Below are positions 55,829 through 63,745 of a DNA stretch of 64,000 bases, one piece after another. Under the pieces are notes generated by a model. That model was given only the letters and a program-made list of their open reading frames with translations, was not told where the DNA came from and did no database searches. The position numbers were made by a program, and so were the translations under genes. The stretch covers positions 1-64,000 of the forward strand of contig JAHJGO010000003.1 in assembly GCA_018824405.1 (NCBI GenBank). Direction: 5' to 3'. Numbering within the stretch: position 1 is the first letter of the stretch; each line of letters starts with the position of its first letter. The stretch comes from Gammaproteobacteria bacterium (GTDB lineage Bacteria > Pseudomonadota > Gammaproteobacteria > Burkholderiales > Sulfuricellaceae).

Positions 55829-57148
55829 GTGCCGGCTATTGCATTACCCGGCGCGTTGCCTGATCTGCTGGCGTTGCATGCACTGAATCGGCAGCGCTAT
55901 CCCTATCTGTTGCAGAGTCTCGGTGGTAGTGGGTGCTGGGACATTCTGTTCGCTTTCCCGCAACAACATTACCCGCTTCATGCGGACGGCTCTGTTGACG
56001 CTTTTTTGCCAACTCTGGACAGCCTGTGGCGCAAAGCCGCAGAACAGATTGAGCCGGATGCTTCGGCATCACATCTGCCTTTTCGTGGCGGCTGGTTCCT
56101 GTTCTGTGGATATGAATTGCTTCAGGCAATTGAACCCTCCGTTCAGGTGAAGCTTGCGCACGATGGTTTTCCACTGGCCTGGCTGACACGTATTCCTGCC
56201 GCAGTGCTGGTGGATCGTGAAAACAGGCAGAGCTGGTGGGTAGCGGAGCCTGGGTATGAAAATCTATTAGCGTCATTTCAGGACGATCTTTTACACGCTG
56301 AAGTTTTTCAGCCGGCATCGATTGCGGTGGCCGAACTGCGTGAGGAAGACCCGAAGCAGTTTTTGCAGGGGGTGTCCCGAATCAAGCGCTATATCAGGGA
56401 CGGGGATGTATTCCAGGTCAATCTGGCGCGGCGCTGGGAAGCCCGGCTGGAGCAGGGCGGTGCCGCTGACCTTTATGCCATTCTGCGTGAGCGCAATCCG
56501 GCGCCCTTTGCCGGGCTGGCCGATTTTGGCGACAGCCAGATCATCAGTTCATCGCCTGAGCGGCTGGCACGTATACAGGCTGGTGAGATCGAAACCCGTC
56601 CGATAGCAGGAACGCATCCCCGCGCCGCTTCTCCGGAAGAGGATGCCCAACTGCGCGAGGCGCTGATCACCAGTGCCAAGGAACGTGCCGAGCACATCAT
56701 GCTGGTGGATCTTGAGCGCAACGATATGGGGCGCATCTGCCAGCCGGGTAGCGTGCAGGTGGATGATCTGATGGCAGTGCGAAGCTATGCTCACGTGCAT
56801 CACATCGAATCCAGCGTGCGCGGACGCCTTTGCTCGGGCACAACGCCGGGGCAGGTGCTGCGCGCCCTGTTTCCGGGCGGCACCATTACCGGCTGTCCCA
56901 AGGTCCGTACCATGCAGATCATCGCCGAACTGGAAGCCAGCCCCCGCCAGGCTTACACTGGCAGCATGGGTTATGTGAATCACGATGGCAGCATGGACCT
57001 GAATATTCTTATTCGCACTTTCATGCTGCTCGGAAAACAACTCGGTTTCAAGGCAGGGGCGGGTATCGTTGCGGACTCCGAACCGGAGCGCGAACTGGCG
57101 GAAACGCGGGCCAAGGCGAAGGGGTTGTTACGTGCGCTGGCTCCCTGA
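55829..57148 (+). CDS. pabB: Aminodeoxychorismate synthase component I-like
   Basis: 439-residue chorismate-binding enzyme of folate synthesis, converting chorismate with ammonia to 4-amino-4-deoxychorismate. The N-terminal half is PabB-like (GGWFLFCGYEL); the C-terminal half has the chorismate-binding core with LVDLERNDMGR, FPGGTITGCPK and the motif PIAGT. E. coli PabB has PIKGT with a nucleophilic Lys here, while TrpE has Ala, so this belongs to a Lys-less type; anthranilate synthase is a less likely alternative given no trp genes. Start GTG 55829. Its end overlaps the MBL gene by 21 bp. Confidence 0.85.
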   Translation: MPAIALPGALPDLLALHALNRQRYPYLLQSLGGSGCWDILFAFPQQHYPLHADGSVDAFLPTLDSLWRKAAEQIEPDASASHLPFRGGWFLFCGYELLQAIEPSVQVKLAHDGFPLAWLTRIPAAVLVDRENRQSWWVAEPGYENLLASFQDDLLHAEVFQPASIAVAELREEDPKQFLQGVSRIKRYIRDGDVFQVNLARRWEARLEQGGAADLYAILRERNPAPFAGLADFGDSQIISSSPERLARIQAGEIETRPIAGTHPRAASPEEDAQLREALITSAKERAEHIMLVDLERNDMGRICQPGSVQVDDLMAVRSYAHVHHIESSVRGRLCSGTTPGQVLRALFPGGTITGCPKVRTMQIIAELEASPRQAYTGSMGYVNHDGSMDLNILIRTFMLLGKQLGFKAGAGIVADSEPERELAETRAKAKGLLRALAP

Positions 57149-58090
57149 AGATTTATTCAGCCATACGCCGATACCTTGAGCGTTGAGCTCAAAATCCATG
57201 CCCAGCAGCCTGCTGATTTCTTCCAGCGGTAAATTGCAGCCATGGGCCTGCAGGGCCTGAAGCATGATTTCTTCCACGCCAGCCTTGAGGCGCTCGTGGC
57301 GGTTTTTTCCCGCTTTATGTAGCCGGATTCCCAGTTCCACATAAGCCTCCAGCATGTGATGCAGATCAGCTGCAAGCCGTTCCAGCTGGGTGATGCGACT
57401 GTAGTGGGTAAGATAGATCTGAGCGGGTTCCAGGGCCATGATGCGGTCTATCGAAGCGTGCGCCGCATCGGGCTCGAACTGTACTGGCGTACACGTCGGG
57501 AAGATGAATTCACGCCCATCGACGTCGAATTCCCGGTAGGAAATGCCGAAAGTATCGCCACTGAAGACCGAATGGCTGCACTCGTCCCAGATGCAGAAGT
57601 GGTGGCGTGCATGGCCTGGGGTGTCGAGGAAAATCAGTTTGCGGCCGTTGAAATCAAGCTCGAAGTTATCAGGGGCCATTATCACGCGCTCCGGCGTTAC
57701 CGGAATGATCTCTCCATAGGTCTGTCTGACCGTAGCCTCGCCATACACAGCAGAAGCACCCGCCACCAGATTTGTGGGGTCGATCATGTGGCGTGCGCCG
57801 CGCGGATGCACCACCAGCCGCGCATTGGGGAACTGCTGCATCATCAGGCCGGCAGCCCCGGCATGATCCAGATGCACATGGGTGACGATGACATAGGCCA
57901 CGTCATGTGGTGAGAGCCCCTTGCTGTTTAACGTTTCCAGTAGGTAAGGAAAGGAATAATTGATGCCGGTGTCGATGATGGCGGCCTGGCCTCGTTCCAC
58001 GATCAGGTGAATGGCAGCCAGCCGAGGACGCACGAAGCGCGAATCGATGGCCGTAATGCCATGATCGAAATCCTGATATTCGGTGTTCAT
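57128..58090 (-). CDS. MBL-fold metallo-hydrolase
   Basis: 320 residues. Metal-binding signatures are THVHLDHAG, a later Asp in SGDTFG, TPGHARHHFC and LTHYSRI, enough for a dinuclear site. No signal peptide. The C-terminal about 80 residues are helical. Substrate unknown; the family includes glyoxalase II-like and other hydrolases. Convergent with pabB (21-bp coding overlap) and divergent from the Hpt/HD-GYP gene. Confidence 0.88.
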   Translation of the reverse strand: MNTEYQDFDHGITAIDSRFVRPRLAAIHLIVERGQAAIIDTGINYSFPYLLETLNSKGLSPHDVAYVIVTHVHLDHAGAAGLMMQQFPNARLVVHPRGARHMIDPTNLVAGASAVYGEATVRQTYGEIIPVTPERVIMAPDNFELDFNGRKLIFLDTPGHARHHFCIWDECSHSVFSGDTFGISYREFDVDGREFIFPTCTPVQFEPDAAHASIDRIMALEPAQIYLTHYSRITQLERLAADLHHMLEAYVELGIRLHKAGKNRHERLKAGVEEIMLQALQAHGCNLPLEEISRLLGMDFELNAQGIGVWLNKSSGSQRT

Positions 58091-58218
58091 AAGGGTATTC
58101 CAGATTCGGGATGCTGTGACGCTAGCAAACGGGGGAGTGCCTGTCCAGCTCAGTGTGTGTTGACCTTGCAGGCGCTGCAGTGCAAAGTGGCTGAATTATT
58201 AACAAGAAAGATAACAGC

Positions 58219-59325
58219 ATGGTAAACATTCAGGCTCTTATTAATCCGCGGGTGCCGGATAGCGAAGCACTGCTCGAATTTGCCGAAGCGCTGACCGACC
58301 GGGCGCCGGATATCGAGCGCGATATGGCGCGCCTGGCGCAGGCGCCGACGGACCGGGTGGTGATCGCTGATATCTTTCGTGCCATGCATAACATCAAGGG
58401 CGATGCTGCCATGTGCAAGGTGGAAATGGCAGCCCTGATTGCCCATCCGATCGAGTCGCTGCTCACGCGCCTGCGTTCCGGGGAACTACGTTATTCAAGG
58501 ATGATGGGGGAAGCTATCCTGCTGGCTGTGGACCGCCTGGAACTGGCTACCGAGGCTCTGGTGGCGAGGAAGCCGCTGAGTCATCTGAAACTGGTCGAGC
58601 TGGTGGAAGGGCTTGAAAAATTGTGCCTGGCGCAACAGTCGGAATTGGATCGCCTTGCAGCGCAGGTGATTCAGAGCGTGACTGGGTTTCGACCGCAGGA
58701 AACGCTCAAGGCAAAAATTGGAAAATCGTCGGCACAGCCCATGGCGCAGGATCATGTTGTCCCCGATTTGCATTTTTTCCGCTCCCTGGCCTTTCAATAT
58801 GAAGCGCGTTCGCCATTGCTCCAGGGGCGGACCGGGCGCATTCTGGAACTGGCGATGGAGACCAACCGGGCGGCGGGGTCCCCGGTGGATGCAACGCAAC
58901 TGGAAGCCGCGGTTTACATGCACGATGTCGGGATGATGTTCCTGCCGGAATCAATCTGGCTCAAAACGGGGAAGGTCAGCGAGGAAGAGCGCCATGCTCT
59001 GCAGGCGCATCCTGGCTTGGCTGCCGGTCTGGTCGAGCGTATGCAAGGCTGGAAGGCGGCGGCGGAAATGGTACTGCAGCATCACGAAATGCCGGACGGC
59101 GCGGGTTATCCGAACGGCAGCATGGACGATAAAATCTGTGGCGGAGCCAAAATTCTTGCCATTGTGGACGCGTTCGAAGCGGTTACCCTCAAGCATAATG
59201 TACGTGGCCACAAGCGCTCCATATTGAGGGCCATTGCCGAAGTGAATGCGTGTGACAAGCAGTTTGCTCCTGAGTGGATCGAGCCTTTCAATACCGTGGT
59301 CCGGCGTATGTTGGAACAGCAATAA
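58219..59325 (+). CDS. Hpt-domain protein fused to a divergent HD-GYP domain
   Basis: 368 residues. The N-terminal about 125 residues are an Hpt domain with the phosphorylatable H57 in FRAMHNIKGDAAM. A linker leads to an HD-GYP-like domain (about 185-360): HD at 235-236, HHE at 288-290 and DGAGYP at 293-298. The usual HDxGK Lys is Met (HDVGMM), and the first conserved His of HD-GYP domains is not evident, so metal binding and cyclic-di-GMP hydrolysis are uncertain. Phosphorelay input to an HD-GYP output is the likely logic. fumarase starts 9 bp later. Confidence 0.82.
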   Translation: MVNIQALINPRVPDSEALLEFAEALTDRAPDIERDMARLAQAPTDRVVIADIFRAMHNIKGDAAMCKVEMAALIAHPIESLLTRLRSGELRYSRMMGEAILLAVDRLELATEALVARKPLSHLKLVELVEGLEKLCLAQQSELDRLAAQVIQSVTGFRPQETLKAKIGKSSAQPMAQDHVVPDLHFFRSLAFQYEARSPLLQGRTGRILELAMETNRAAGSPVDATQLEAAVYMHDVGMMFLPESIWLKTGKVSEEERHALQAHPGLAAGLVERMQGWKAAAEMVLQHHEMPDGAGYPNGSMDDKICGGAKILAIVDAFEAVTLKHNVRGHKRSILRAIAEVNACDKQFAPEWIEPFNTVVRRMLEQQ

Positions 59326-59334
59326 GAGCGAATC

Positions 59335-60858
59335 ATGACCATTATCAAACAGGAAGATTTCATATCCAGCATTGCAGACGCACTGCAATACATTTCCTAT
59401 TATCACCCGATCGATTACATCCAGGCGCTGGGTGAAGCCTACGAGCGTGAGCAGTCTCCTGCCGCAAAAGATGCCATCGCCCAGATACTTACCAACTCGC
59501 GCATGAGCGCACAAGGGCGCCGACCCATCTGTCAGGACACGGGGATCGTGGTGGCTTTCGTCAAGGTGGGCATGGAGGTGCGCTGGGAAGCCGATATGGG
59601 CGTCAGCGACATGGTCAATGAGGGGGTGCATCGCGCCTACACCAACCCGGACAATATTCTGCGCGCTTCCGTGCTGGCTGACCCGGCAGGGGCACGCAGG
59701 AACACGCGCGACAACACCCCGGCGGTGATCCATTACGAGATCGTTCCCGGCGACAAGGTGGAAATCACCGTTGCGGCCAAGGGGGGCGGCTCGGAGAACA
59801 AATCAAAATTCACGATACTCAACCCTTCGGACAGCCTGGTGGACTGGGTGCTGAAAACCGTGCCCACCATGGGAGCGGGATGGTGCCCGCCGGGAATCTT
59901 GGGCATCGGCCTCGGCGGCACGGCGGAGAAAGCCATGCTGCTGGCCAAGGAAGCCCTGATGGAACCGGTGGACATCCACGAATTGCAGGCACGCGGCCCC
60001 AATAGCCGGGTCGAGGAGCTGCGTCTGGAACTGTACGAAAAGGTCAACGCCCTGGGTATCGGCGCGCAGGGACTGGGCGGCCTCACCACCGTGGTGGATA
60101 TTAAAATCAGGGACTACCCGACCCATGCCGCCGGCCTGCCGGTAGGCATGATTCCCAACTGCGCCGCCACCCGCCACATTCATTTCACGCTCGACGGCAG
60201 CGGACCGGCAGTATTGACGCCGCCCTCCCTCGATGAATGGCCGAAAGTGGATTGGCAGCCTCACGCCGATGCGCGGCGCGTCAATCTCGACACGGTAACA
60301 CGCGAGGAAATCGCCAGCTGGAAGCCGGGCGAAGCCCTGCTCCTGTCGGGCAAGCTGCTCACGGGGCGTGACGCCGCCCATAAACGCATTGCCGAACTGT
60401 TCTCCAAAGGCGAGGGGCTGCCGGCCGGCGTGGATTTCACCAATCGATTTATTTACTACGTCGGCCCGGTCGACCCGGTGCGCGACGAAGTGGTCGGTCC
60501 CGCCGGTCCCACCACGGCAACGCGCATGGACAAATTCACCGACATGATGCTGGATAAAACCGGCCTGGTCGGCATGATCGGCAAGGCCGAGCGTGGACCG
60601 GAGGCGATCGAGAGCATCCGCCGGCACAAGGCGGTCTATCTCATGGCGGTCGGCGGCGCTGCCTACCTGGTCGCCAAGGCGATCAAGTCAGCCAGGGTCA
60701 TCGCCTTCGAGGATCTGGGCATGGAGGCGATCTACGAATTCGTGGTGCAGGACATGCCGGTGACGGTGGCAGTGGATGCGGGCGGCACATCCGTGCACAC
60801 CACCGGCCCGGCCGAATGGCGGGGCAGGATAGGCCGGATTCCGGTGGTGCAGGGTTAA
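59335..60858 (+). CDS. Class I fumarate hydratase ([4Fe-4S])
   Basis: 507 residues. Converts fumarate and malate with an oxygen-sensitive [4Fe-4S] cluster. The three cluster Cys are probably in ICQDTG, GAGWCPPG and IPNCAATRH; KGGGSENKSKF and the C-terminal half with YVGPVDPVRDEVVGPAGPTT are typical. It is the fused alpha/beta form, shorter than E. coli FumA (548). It probably shares a transcript with the Hpt/HD-GYP gene. Confidence 0.95.
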   Translation: MTIIKQEDFISSIADALQYISYYHPIDYIQALGEAYEREQSPAAKDAIAQILTNSRMSAQGRRPICQDTGIVVAFVKVGMEVRWEADMGVSDMVNEGVHRAYTNPDNILRASVLADPAGARRNTRDNTPAVIHYEIVPGDKVEITVAAKGGGSENKSKFTILNPSDSLVDWVLKTVPTMGAGWCPPGILGIGLGGTAEKAMLLAKEALMEPVDIHELQARGPNSRVEELRLELYEKVNALGIGAQGLGGLTTVVDIKIRDYPTHAAGLPVGMIPNCAATRHIHFTLDGSGPAVLTPPSLDEWPKVDWQPHADARRVNLDTVTREEIASWKPGEALLLSGKLLTGRDAAHKRIAELFSKGEGLPAGVDFTNRFIYYVGPVDPVRDEVVGPAGPTTATRMDKFTDMMLDKTGLVGMIGKAERGPEAIESIRRHKAVYLMAVGGAAYLVAKAIKSARVIAFEDLGMEAIYEFVVQDMPVTVAVDAGGTSVHTTGPAEWRGRIGRIPVVQG

Positions 60859-60933: not shown

Positions 60934-62886
60934 TCAGTCGGCGAGCCAATAACAGGTCAGCGGAGGCAGGACGATTGTGTCGTTTTCCAGCGCGATGCGC
61001 GCACCAGAGCAGATGTCTTTCATGCCGTCCTGCATGAAGAAGCCATGCACCCTTAACGCACCCACTGAAAGCGCTTGCGTCTCGACATTGAAGTTGCCGA
61101 CCACGAGTACTTTGTTGCGGCTGTTTTGCGGGTCGCTGCGGGAAAAGACCAGCAGATTGGGGTTGTCCACTGTCAGCAACTGGCGGTTGTCGAAGTCCGC
61201 GAAAGCCAGCGTTTCCTTGCGCAGTGCGATGATTTTTTTCAGTGTGCTGAATATGCGCTGTTCCACCGTGCCGTTCTCATGGCGTCTCGCCGCCTTGTTC
61301 CAGTCGAAGTGCGAACGATGCATCCAGCGGTTGTCGGCGCGTTTGGCGGGGTCGGCGAGATATTCCAGGCTGTTGAGGGTGCCGATCGCATCGCCGTAGT
61401 AAAGCAGCGGTATCCCGCCGAACGACAGAATCATGCTGTGCAGCAGCACGATAGTTTTGATCGCAGCCTCGATGGCTGCCTCATCTTCGCTTTCAAGCGC
61501 GCTCTCGAGGCCGACCAGCGAGGCGAGAGAGCCTGAAATGCGCGCATCCCCGGTTTTCGGATTCTCGCCGAAGGGCAGGCCCCTGGCGGGCGAACTGGGG
61601 AATTTGCCGGTGAAGTAATCGATCACGAAGCGCCGGTGCTGCGCCGGGTCATAGCCGGCCAGGCGGATGTCGCTGTCGTCGAACCCCAGGCCGATGTCGT
61701 CGTGGCAACGTACGTAGTTGAGCCAGGTTGCCCGTTCCAGCTTGTTGGGCAGGTTTTTGACGCCATGGTTGAGCACGCTCGCGTTCTTGGTTGCCACCGC
61801 ATCCCAGAGCAGGGCCATGAAGGTGGCGTTGTAGGCGATCTCGCATTCCTTGGCATTGATCGCGTCTTCGCCGAAGTACTTGGAAATTTCTCCGGGAGCG
61901 ACGATGGCTTCCGCGATAAACAGCACGCCCGGCGCGGTGACCTGGCAGCAATCCTTCATCAGTTGCAGCAGAAGATGGGCTTCGCGCTCGTTCTGGCATA
62001 CGCTGCCCATCTTCTTCCACAGGAAGGCGACAGCATCCAGGCGCAGGATGTCCGCACCCTGGTTGGCCCAGAACAGGATGATGTCGATCATTTCGATCAG
62101 TACTGCCGGGTTGCGGTAGTTCAGATCCCATTGATAGTTGTTGAACACCGTCATGACCCATTTGCCCATTTCTTCATCCCAGGTGAAGTTTCCGGGGGCG
62201 GTGGCCGGGAATATCTCCGGCATGGTCTGCTCGAAAATGTCAGGCATCTCGCGGTCGTCGAAGACGAAGTAGTAATCCTGGTATTTCTTTTCGCCTTTGC
62301 GTGCGCGCTGCGCCCATTCGTGCTCGTCCGAGGTGTGGTTGACCACCACATCGAGGGCCAGCAGCATGTCGCGCTTCTTGAGCGTGGTAGCCAGTGCTGC
62401 GACATCTTCCGTGGTGCCGAAACGCGGGTCGATGCGATAGAAGTCGCGCACCGCATAGCCGCCGTCGCTGTTGTCCGGCGGACAGTCGAGCATGGGCATG
62501 ACATGCAGCATGTTGACGCCCAGTTCCTGCAGGTAGGGAAGGTTTTCGCGCAAGCCTTTCAGATCCCCGGCGAAGCGGTCGCAGTACAACGCCATGCCGA
62601 CCCATTTCTGGCTCAGGAACCAGTTGTAGTCTTTTTCCCGTGCCAGGTCCGATCTCCGCAGGGAGGGCGTTCGTTCGATATAGCGCAGCGCGAGTGTCTC
62701 GACCAGGCTGACCATCTGTTCCTTGAAGTCGGGGCGGTCGCCATACAGCAGGTAGAACAGGGAATGAATGGCGTAAAAATTCGCACCAAGGCGGGTGTAG
62801 AAATGCCGCATGCGCATTTTCCCGATCTCGGGTTTCAGTTGGACCAGAATTTCATTCAGCAGCGAGTGGGAAACTTGTTCGTACAT
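60934..62886 (-). CDS. ams: Amylosucrase (GH13)
   Basis: 650 residues, similar to Neisseria amylosucrase. Uses sucrose to build alpha-1,4-glucan, releasing fructose. The helical N-terminal domain (about 1-90) precedes the GH13 barrel: GYAVRDFYRIDP, VVNHTSDEHEWA, MTVFNNYQWDLNYRNP, nucleophile Asp in ILRLDAVAF (about 285), acid Glu in FIAEAIVAP, and NYVRCHDDIG. Distal gene of a sps-spp-ams operon, 28 bp after spp, which favours amylosucrase over sucrose hydrolase. Confidence 0.92.
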   Translation of the reverse strand: MYEQVSHSLLNEILVQLKPEIGKMRMRHFYTRLGANFYAIHSLFYLLYGDRPDFKEQMVSLVETLALRYIERTPSLRRSDLAREKDYNWFLSQKWVGMALYCDRFAGDLKGLRENLPYLQELGVNMLHVMPMLDCPPDNSDGGYAVRDFYRIDPRFGTTEDVAALATTLKKRDMLLALDVVVNHTSDEHEWAQRARKGEKKYQDYYFVFDDREMPDIFEQTMPEIFPATAPGNFTWDEEMGKWVMTVFNNYQWDLNYRNPAVLIEMIDIILFWANQGADILRLDAVAFLWKKMGSVCQNEREAHLLLQLMKDCCQVTAPGVLFIAEAIVAPGEISKYFGEDAINAKECEIAYNATFMALLWDAVATKNASVLNHGVKNLPNKLERATWLNYVRCHDDIGLGFDDSDIRLAGYDPAQHRRFVIDYFTGKFPSSPARGLPFGENPKTGDARISGSLASLVGLESALESEDEAAIEAAIKTIVLLHSMILSFGGIPLLYYGDAIGTLNSLEYLADPAKRADNRWMHRSHFDWNKAARRHENGTVEQRIFSTLKKIIALRKETLAFADFDNRQLLTVDNPNLLVFSRSDPQNSRNKVLVVGNFNVETQALSVGALRVHGFFMQDGMKDICSGARIALENDTIVLPPLTCYWLAD

Positions 62887-62914
62887 TAATTATTCTCTGG
62901 TTAAATCGTTCCGT

Positions 62915-63745
62915 TCAGACTTGTTCGCGCAGCCATGCATCAACATCTGGCTGGTAGTGTGCGATGCCCTCAAGGATGCCGGCACTGTAATTGCCATTCA
63001 TGCCGAGGTAGCTACCCCGGGCGAGGTAAAGGGCATCCTTATGAGCCATGGCTGCCGCATTCTTGACTTCGCCGTCGGCATTGGCCACCAGCACGGCGGG
63101 AATGTCGCTCAGCAGGACGTCGAGGTCGTTGCCACTGTCGCCGGCAAAGACAGTGTTGTTGTGGCCGAAGCCTTTTTGTTGCATCAGAAAGTGGATGGCA
63201 TGCAGTTTGTTGGCGCTGGCGGGCAGGATATCCAGCAAGCCGATCCTGGCCGGTTCGTCGATGCTCCAGATCAGATTCGCCCTGATATTTGCCTGCTTCA
63301 GTCGCGTTTCCATCTCTCCAATCAGGTTTTGAGCATCTGTTTCCAGCGGAATATAGAAGCTGAGTTTGTGGCGATTCTGCTTTTCCCTTTCCTGCAAGCT
63401 CAGTTCAGGAAAGCCGCTCAACAGTTTGTGCAGCTCGTCATGGCTCAGACCGCACCAGTCAGGCGCGATCTGCTCGTCCCATGCTTTCCATTGATGCCAG
63501 CCGGTCGCGTCGGTTTGGTAAATGGTTGATCCGACGTCTGCGATGGCGAAGTCCGGTTGCGGCAGGCCGAATTCTACTATGGCCTGCTTGATGAGGGCAC
63601 GATGCCGGCCTGTTACATAGGCAAGGGTGACTTTATTGTTGCTCACCAGCCGTTTGAAGCGTTCCCTGGCCAATGGCGATTCGGGCTGCGGGCCATTCGG
63701 GATCAAGGTCCGGTCGAGGTCGGTGCAGAGCAGGAAACGCTTCAT
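62915..63745 (-). CDS. Sucrose-6-phosphate phosphatase
   Basis: 276-residue HAD-superfamily phosphatase. Motif I is DLDRTL (D9 nucleophile, D11), motif III Lys in ASANKLHAI and motif IV VFAGDSGNDLDVL; the C-terminal segment GILEGIAHYQP is shared with the SPS tail. Removes phosphate from sucrose-6-phosphate. Its ATG overlaps the stop of the upstream sps gene by 4 nt (ATGA). Confidence 0.92.
   Translation of the reverse strand: MKRFLLCTDLDRTLIPNGPQPESPLARERFKRLVSNNKVTLAYVTGRHRALIKQAIVEFGLPQPDFAIADVGSTIYQTDATGWHQWKAWDEQIAPDWCGLSHDELHKLLSGFPELSLQEREKQNRHKLSFYIPLETDAQNLIGEMETRLKQANIRANLIWSIDEPARIGLLDILPASANKLHAIHFLMQQKGFGHNNTVFAGDSGNDLDVLLSDIPAVLVANADGEVKNAAAMAHKDALYLARGSYLGMNGNYSAGILEGIAHYQPDVDAWLREQV

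Follow-up and report, generated by a model that had tools for sequence, protein, structure and literature searches.

A conserved Hpt-HD-GYP fusion with a paired replacement in the HD-GYP active site

The stretch of DNA analysed here, referred to as the window, comprises positions 1 to 64,000 (64,000 nucleotides) of contig JAHJGO010000003.1 from the Gammaproteobacteria bacterium assembly GCA_018824405.1 (Sulfuricellaceae). One of its genes (58219..59325, + strand) encodes a 368-residue protein that joins an N-terminal histidine phosphotransfer (Hpt) domain to a C-terminal HD-GYP domain in which two active-site residues are replaced as a pair. This Hpt-linked HD-GYP is real and conserved. Within our searches, both domains, the two substitutions and their joint occurrence recur in a single clade of proteins, and the adjacency to a fumarase gene is confined to one genus. 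No description of an Hpt-HD-GYP fusion was found in the literature searched on HD-GYP with Hpt, which covered article text, partly as excerpts. Judged from its sequence, the protein is probably a conserved, remodelled HD-GYP that does not hydrolyse its ligand, and most likely it would act as a cyclic-di-GMP receptor or adaptor within a phosphorelay.

Architecture, folds and active site

The gene was delimited, from an ATG start, by its open reading frame (ORF), its Pfam matches and its relatives. Its N-terminal part is an Hpt domain of the CheA P1 type (residues 13–140; 58255..58638, +). The Pfam model PF01627 scores 32.7 bits against a cut-off of 24.6 over residues 31–107, and the translation contains the HxxKG motif as H57-N-I-K60-G61. 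An AlphaFold2 model built from 41 sequences reached a mean predicted local distance difference test score (pLDDT) of 91.1. Residues 13–140 of this model form a helical bundle, and structural alignment places them on the CheA P1 structure 1i5n_A with a Z score of 16.9 and 2.3 Å over 128 residues; a second CheA P1 structure, 1tqg, yields a Z score of 14.4. In line with this fold, 38 of 41 family members matched the NCBIfam model CheA_Halo at E 1e-5. The predicted phosphorylation site, His57 to Lys60 (58387..58398, +), is well conserved, with His57 in 78/82 and Lys60 in 76/82 members, and the residues at positions 57, 60, 76 and 79 are HKHE in 65 members and HKQE in another 10. We take CheA P1 to have the same His/Lys/His/Glu spacing (+3, +19, +22), with known roles for those residues. 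CheA itself is a single polypeptide in which P1 is accompanied by a dimerisation, a kinase and a CheW-like domain. Of these, Pfam returned Hpt alone for the fusion protein, and CheA models scored far under their cut-offs. Thus, the P1 fold is common to both proteins, whereas no CheA kinase core was found here and the partner domain is an HD-GYP.

The HD-GYP domain occupies residues 181–368 (58759..59322, +). HD_5 (PF13487) scores 85.3 bits against a cut-off of 27.2 over residues 196–344, and structural alignment superimposes approximately residues 173 to 368 on solved HD-GYP domains, namely 9rbz_D and 4r8z_A (both Z 19.8) and 4mcw_B (Z 19.5). No solved structure with both an Hpt and an HD-GYP domain was found in the sequence and fold searches. 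The characteristic motifs are present: H235-D-V-G-M239 (58921..58935, +) retains the HD diad, and H288-H-E is followed by D293-G-A-G-Y-P298 (residues 288–298; 59080..59112, +). Conservation of the site is high throughout the family (n = 82), with H235 in 81 members, D236, H264, H288, H289 and G296 in all 82, D317 and P298 in 80 each, and Y297 in 77. An earlier note, made from the window's sequence, had proposed the fusion together with its H57, HHE and DGAGYP motifs, and had made its reading depend on a predicted Hpt fold at the N-terminus. The domain matches, the translation and the model bear out each of these points, and ORFs with both parts recur, beyond chance, 82 times.

Two residues expected of an HD-GYP phosphodiesterase are missing. 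The lysine of HDxGK is Met239, as the earlier note had recognised; that note described the methionine alone and missed that the first metal-ligand histidine (H189 of the phosphodiesterase PmGH) is Arg204 (58828..58830, +). Sequence alignment and motif order were the basis for equating Arg204 and Met239 with PmGH residues H189 and K225, respectively. Arginine occupies the first position in 81/82 members, and column 239 holds Met in 78, Leu in 3, Tyr in 1 and Lys in none; both replacements occur together in 78/82. We compared these columns with 62 other HD-GYP ORFs that the searches for relatives had also retrieved, obtained from 68 after removal of six (L024, L055, L059, two of L071, and L065) that were family fragments or lacked an HD-GYP. 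Here the histidine is present in 55/56 aligned sequences and the lysine in 53/61, and the Arg-Met pair occurs in 0/56. The organism's own genome encodes 16 HD-GYP domains. Among the 15 others, the lysine is retained in 14/14 aligned domains (the 15th did not align) and the histidine in 8/9. V-cGAP3 likewise has a histidine aligned to Arg204. S198 and L200, the equivalents of D183 and E185, also differ from most HD-GYPs; we did not use them as evidence of inactivity, because V-cGAP3, a listed phosphodiesterase, differs there as well, with Ser and Tyr.

The 82 family rows count the window's own gene twice (L001 and L111), and L073 and L117 are probably one contig; merging identical HD-GYP regions leaves 80. 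Relatives were drawn partly from 80 listed loci and, in addition, from 369 genomes of the class. In a FastTree phylogeny of the HD-GYP part, the 80 distinct rows group with three family fragments in a single clade (support 0.976) that excludes the other 59 rows. Apart from contig-end or split fragments, no Arg-Met HD-GYP without the N-terminal part was found. The fusion was matched at E 1e-35 in 18 of 398 genomes sampled from the phylum, all in the same class or closer, and no plasmid record matched the gene at E 1e-20. Among the matches listed, carriers include Gallionella, Azonexus, Dechloromonas, Accumulibacter, Propionivibrio, Aquitalea, Chromobacterium, Vogesella, Glaciecola and Aestuariibacter. 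The family spans beta- and gammaproteobacteria. The possibility that the architecture is widespread and already characterised, raised at the outset, holds for its spread, while no characterisation was found in the literature searched.

One uncultured Gallionellaceae metagenome-assembled genome (MAG) contig (L065:48-1457) carries a family-type Hpt, 47% identical over residues 1–186, in frame with an HDOD domain that replaces the HD-GYP. HDOD is a non-catalytic relative of HD. No further full-length Hpt-HDOD protein was found in 61 genomes, and the example rests on this single MAG contig.

Proposed function and competing explanations

We propose, tentatively, that the fusion is a phosphorelay protein with a pseudo-phosphodiesterase output, a plausible reading for which we infer the loss of hydrolysis, ligand binding, phosphorylation, the partners and the direction of coupling. 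A kinase or a receiver domain would phosphorylate His57 of the Hpt domain. The HD-GYP domain, with most metal ligands and the GYP loop, would bind cyclic di-GMP, or a cyclic-di-GMP enzyme, without hydrolysis. The two domains would then tune each other, such that phosphorylation alters binding or binding gates phosphotransfer.

The comparison with solved HD-GYP proteins is consistent with this proposal. The active phosphodiesterases PmGH (4mcw) and PA4781 (4r8z) share the HD-GYP fold with the fusion protein, which keeps HD, H264, H288, H289, D317 and GYP. It differs from PmGH in having Arg204 for H189 and Met239 for K225, and an Hpt domain where PmGH has a GAF domain. In PmGH, H189 is a ligand of the H-site and K225 stabilises the iron centre by hydrogen bonds; H189A and K225A variants are essentially inactive (PMC4159591). 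A PmGH subunit that retained only the G-site iron after treatment with ethylenediaminetetraacetic acid (EDTA) holds uncut cyclic di-GMP (PMC4159591). As most of the remaining site is intact in the Arg-Met family, along with the GYP loop, binding without cutting would be the natural reading. Of the two replacements, lysine to methionine is the weightier. DvhD (9rbz), whose fold match ties with that of PA4781 for first place, is a cyclic-di-GMP receptor without hydrolytic activity (PMC13090378). Catalysis is lost in DvhD and predicted to be lost in the fusion protein, which keeps its GYP loop. DvhD differs in that SQ replaces HD and Met/Asn the double His, and in being a membrane-bound receptor that contains dCache and PAS domains.

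Several observations weigh against the proposed reading. In RpfG, which is described as a functional phosphodiesterase, the counterparts of H189 and E185 are Phe and Gly (PMC4159591), so that Arg204 alone is no proof of inactivity. Methionine also occurs at the HDxGK lysine column in 3/61 other HD-GYPs. The position of the guanine-contacting R314 of PmGH is variable in the family (His in 50/82, Arg in 24/82), and cyclic-di-GMP binding may therefore differ. The structural model is confident inside the domains but, with a predicted template modelling score (pTM) of 0.55, silent on how they touch. Five of the 82 members retain Arg and Met although either His57 (L067, L126, L127) or the residues that assist it (L121, L123) have been lost, which suggests that phosphorylation is dispensable in some members and that the HD-GYP part may serve alone; the outlier L128 lacks both His57 and the Arg-Met pair. 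Furthermore, a general enrichment of two-component genes around the fusion gene was rejected, as such genes lie within 6 kb in 21/58 loci versus 11/40 random stretches (p = 0.39), and the kinase-like neighbour described below passes Pfam for HATPase_c only. The random stretches were 40 13-kb segments from fusion-carrying genomes, two pairs of which overlap.

A not very likely alternative is an adaptor that acts through protein-protein contacts and leaves cyclic di-GMP unbound, in which a degenerate HD-GYP controls another cyclic-di-GMP enzyme, as in HnoD or NosR, and Hpt replaces the usual receiver. In an Acidithiobacillus survey, each HD-GYP protein with an accessory domain carries a receiver (PMC6416229). 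Shewanella HnoD is inactive and suppresses HnoB by direct contact (PMC6335343), and NosR of B. pseudomallei was judged by its authors a likely degenerate HD-GYP (PMC12570481). Both resemble the fusion in having an altered HD-GYP under phospho-control, which for the fusion is a prediction, and both differ in having a receiver instead of Hpt. The NosR model (NF053512) is the best NCBIfam match of the fusion protein and matches 41/41 family members scanned at E 1e-5, and GGDEF or GGDEF-EAL genes adjoin the fusion in loci L147, L149, L150 and L168. Against this, the NosR score is 78.6 bits versus a cut-off of 400, the N-terminus is Hpt rather than receiver, and NosR reads HG-GTP where the HD diad and GYP are nearly invariant here, as if the ligand site remained under selection. 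That the protein is still an active phosphodiesterase, relying on a two-metal or Arg-assisted site and switched when its Hpt is phosphorylated, appears quite unlikely. Most metal ligands are retained, and RpfG is described as active without the equivalents of H189 and E185 (PMC4159591). However, no family member has the HDxGK lysine that every aligned HD-GYP elsewhere in the genome keeps, and replacement of either K225 or H189 by alanine inactivates PmGH (PMC4159591).

A role in regulating fumarase or oxygen-sensitive central metabolism is highly improbable. The next gene (59335..60858, +; 507 residues) begins 9 bases after the fusion gene on the same strand, and its product has the domains of a class I (Fe-S type) fumarase (Pfam Fumerase PF05681, 329.4 bits; Fumerase_C PF05683, 290.8 bits). 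The earlier note, whose span of 58219-60858 covers both genes together, had taken this spacing as a hint of coordinated expression, and within the genus the adjacency is tight. Eight copies of the fusion gene were found in own-genus genomes (G006 has none), and a fumarase gene is next to seven of them, separated by at most 15 bases and in one case overlapping by 4 bases at stop and start (starts assigned by eye). Such short gaps and overlap make co-transcription of the pair in this genus likely. As a general feature, the coupling was rejected: of 84 larger loci (gene matched in 83; some loci duplicated, some cut by contig ends), 5 contain a fumarase gene, every one from the same genus, and tcdA follows the fusion gene in 18, including the eighth own-genus copy. 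The own genome also encodes a class II fumarase, so that the class I enzyme is not its sole fumarase. Fumarase adjacency seems to be a local trait, restricted to a single genus. The eighth copy is a second copy in genome G007 (G007:C92, L146) and is either a transfer or a contaminant contig; it is 57% identical, the genome is listed with 7% contamination, and the ispB/tcdA setting is typical of Rhodocyclaceae.

Genome censuses usually count HD-GYP proteins as phosphodiesterases. The Arg-Met clade would pass a motif check, with HD and GYP kept, despite the replacement of two residues essential in the best-studied enzyme. If the pseudo-phosphodiesterase reading is confirmed, Arg plus Met would provide a simple sequence rule for non-hydrolysing HD-GYPs, and the fusion would represent a compact single-protein system for crosstalk between phosphorelay and cyclic di-GMP.

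Candidate partners and genomic neighbourhood

The sole neighbourhood signal retained after comparison with the random stretches is a receiver-TPR protein paired with a small kinase-like protein, which we regard as a lead. The pair starts within 4.3 kb of the fusion gene in 7/84 loci, six times downstream and on the fusion gene's strand, and a full-length receiver-TPR protein is found in 0/40 random stretches. The kinase-like protein matches NCBIfam histidine-kinase models under their cut-offs. The pair is also encoded in the own genome, unlinked to the fusion gene (L197 6103-8459). Receiver-TPR proteins occur in 33/61 genomes, and the six genomes with two matches (G017, G025, G034, G041, G047, G052) all carry Hpt-HD-GYP. 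In a set of 39 genomes, each representing a different family of the order and with the divergent G041 member included, receiver-TPR is present in 6/7 genomes with the fusion and 8/32 without it (one-sided Fisher p = 0.005, counted by hand and uncorrected for phylogeny).

This pair features in a more specific proposal, which we consider unlikely, that the protein is a cyclic-di-GMP-gated phosphorelay valve. Occupancy of the HD-GYP site, which would serve as a non-hydrolysing receptor with Arg204 at the place of a metal, would decide the passage of Hpt phosphate between the small kinase/receiver-TPR pair and cyclic-di-GMP enzymes. If true, a 368-residue protein would weigh phosphorelay state against messenger level, and paired His-to-Arg and Lys-to-Met changes would define a receptor class.

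Two other candidate partners were set aside. A CheA lacking its own P1 was rejected as phosphodonor, as the three CheA-type frames of the own genome each hold an Hpt and no orphan CheA was found. In three sister-genus loci (L147, L149, L150), genes for an HDOD-HisKA-HATPase kinase and a receiver-PAS-GGDEF-EAL protein diverge from the fusion gene. This kinase was rejected as a general partner: at E 1e-40 the own genome has no match to it, whereas two other own-genus genomes, G001 and G002, do. Elsewhere, the next gene encodes a receiver/kinase/GGDEF hybrid (L168), or the fusion gene is followed by a GAF kinase and a regulator of the LuxR type (L154). The receiver-TPR and HATPase/kinase-like genes were seen as a two-gene unit at L031:11293-13623, from Gallionella, and at L197:6103-8459, and the receiver-TPR unit reached no NCBIfam cut-off among the models listed.

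Upstream of the fusion gene, a divergent gene (57128..58090, −) encodes a metallo-β-lactamase (MBL)-fold metallohydrolase (PF00753, 88.7 bits). In 11/84 loci, from the own genus and Rhodocyclaceae-type loci, the fusion gene has an MBL-fold gene in its vicinity, and a plsC-like acyltransferase gene lies upstream on the opposite strand in 8/84. The 128-bp gap between the divergent genes (58091..58218), as given by the gene layout, would be the promoter site if the fusion and fumarase genes share one transcript. No sigma-70 consensus site was found on the + strand between 57900 and 61000, and a promoter and terminator scan gave no signal exceeding shuffled sequences. The MBL-fold protein reached no NCBIfam cut-off among the 25 models listed; in Pfam it also scores as a member of the ODP family (41.2, with a cut-off of 27.2), and its HVHLDH motif and additional ligands were spotted by eye. 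Judged by eye from the ORF list, window positions 60934-63745 (−), downstream of the fumarase gene, encode a glycoside hydrolase of the amylase type and a phosphatase of the HAD type.

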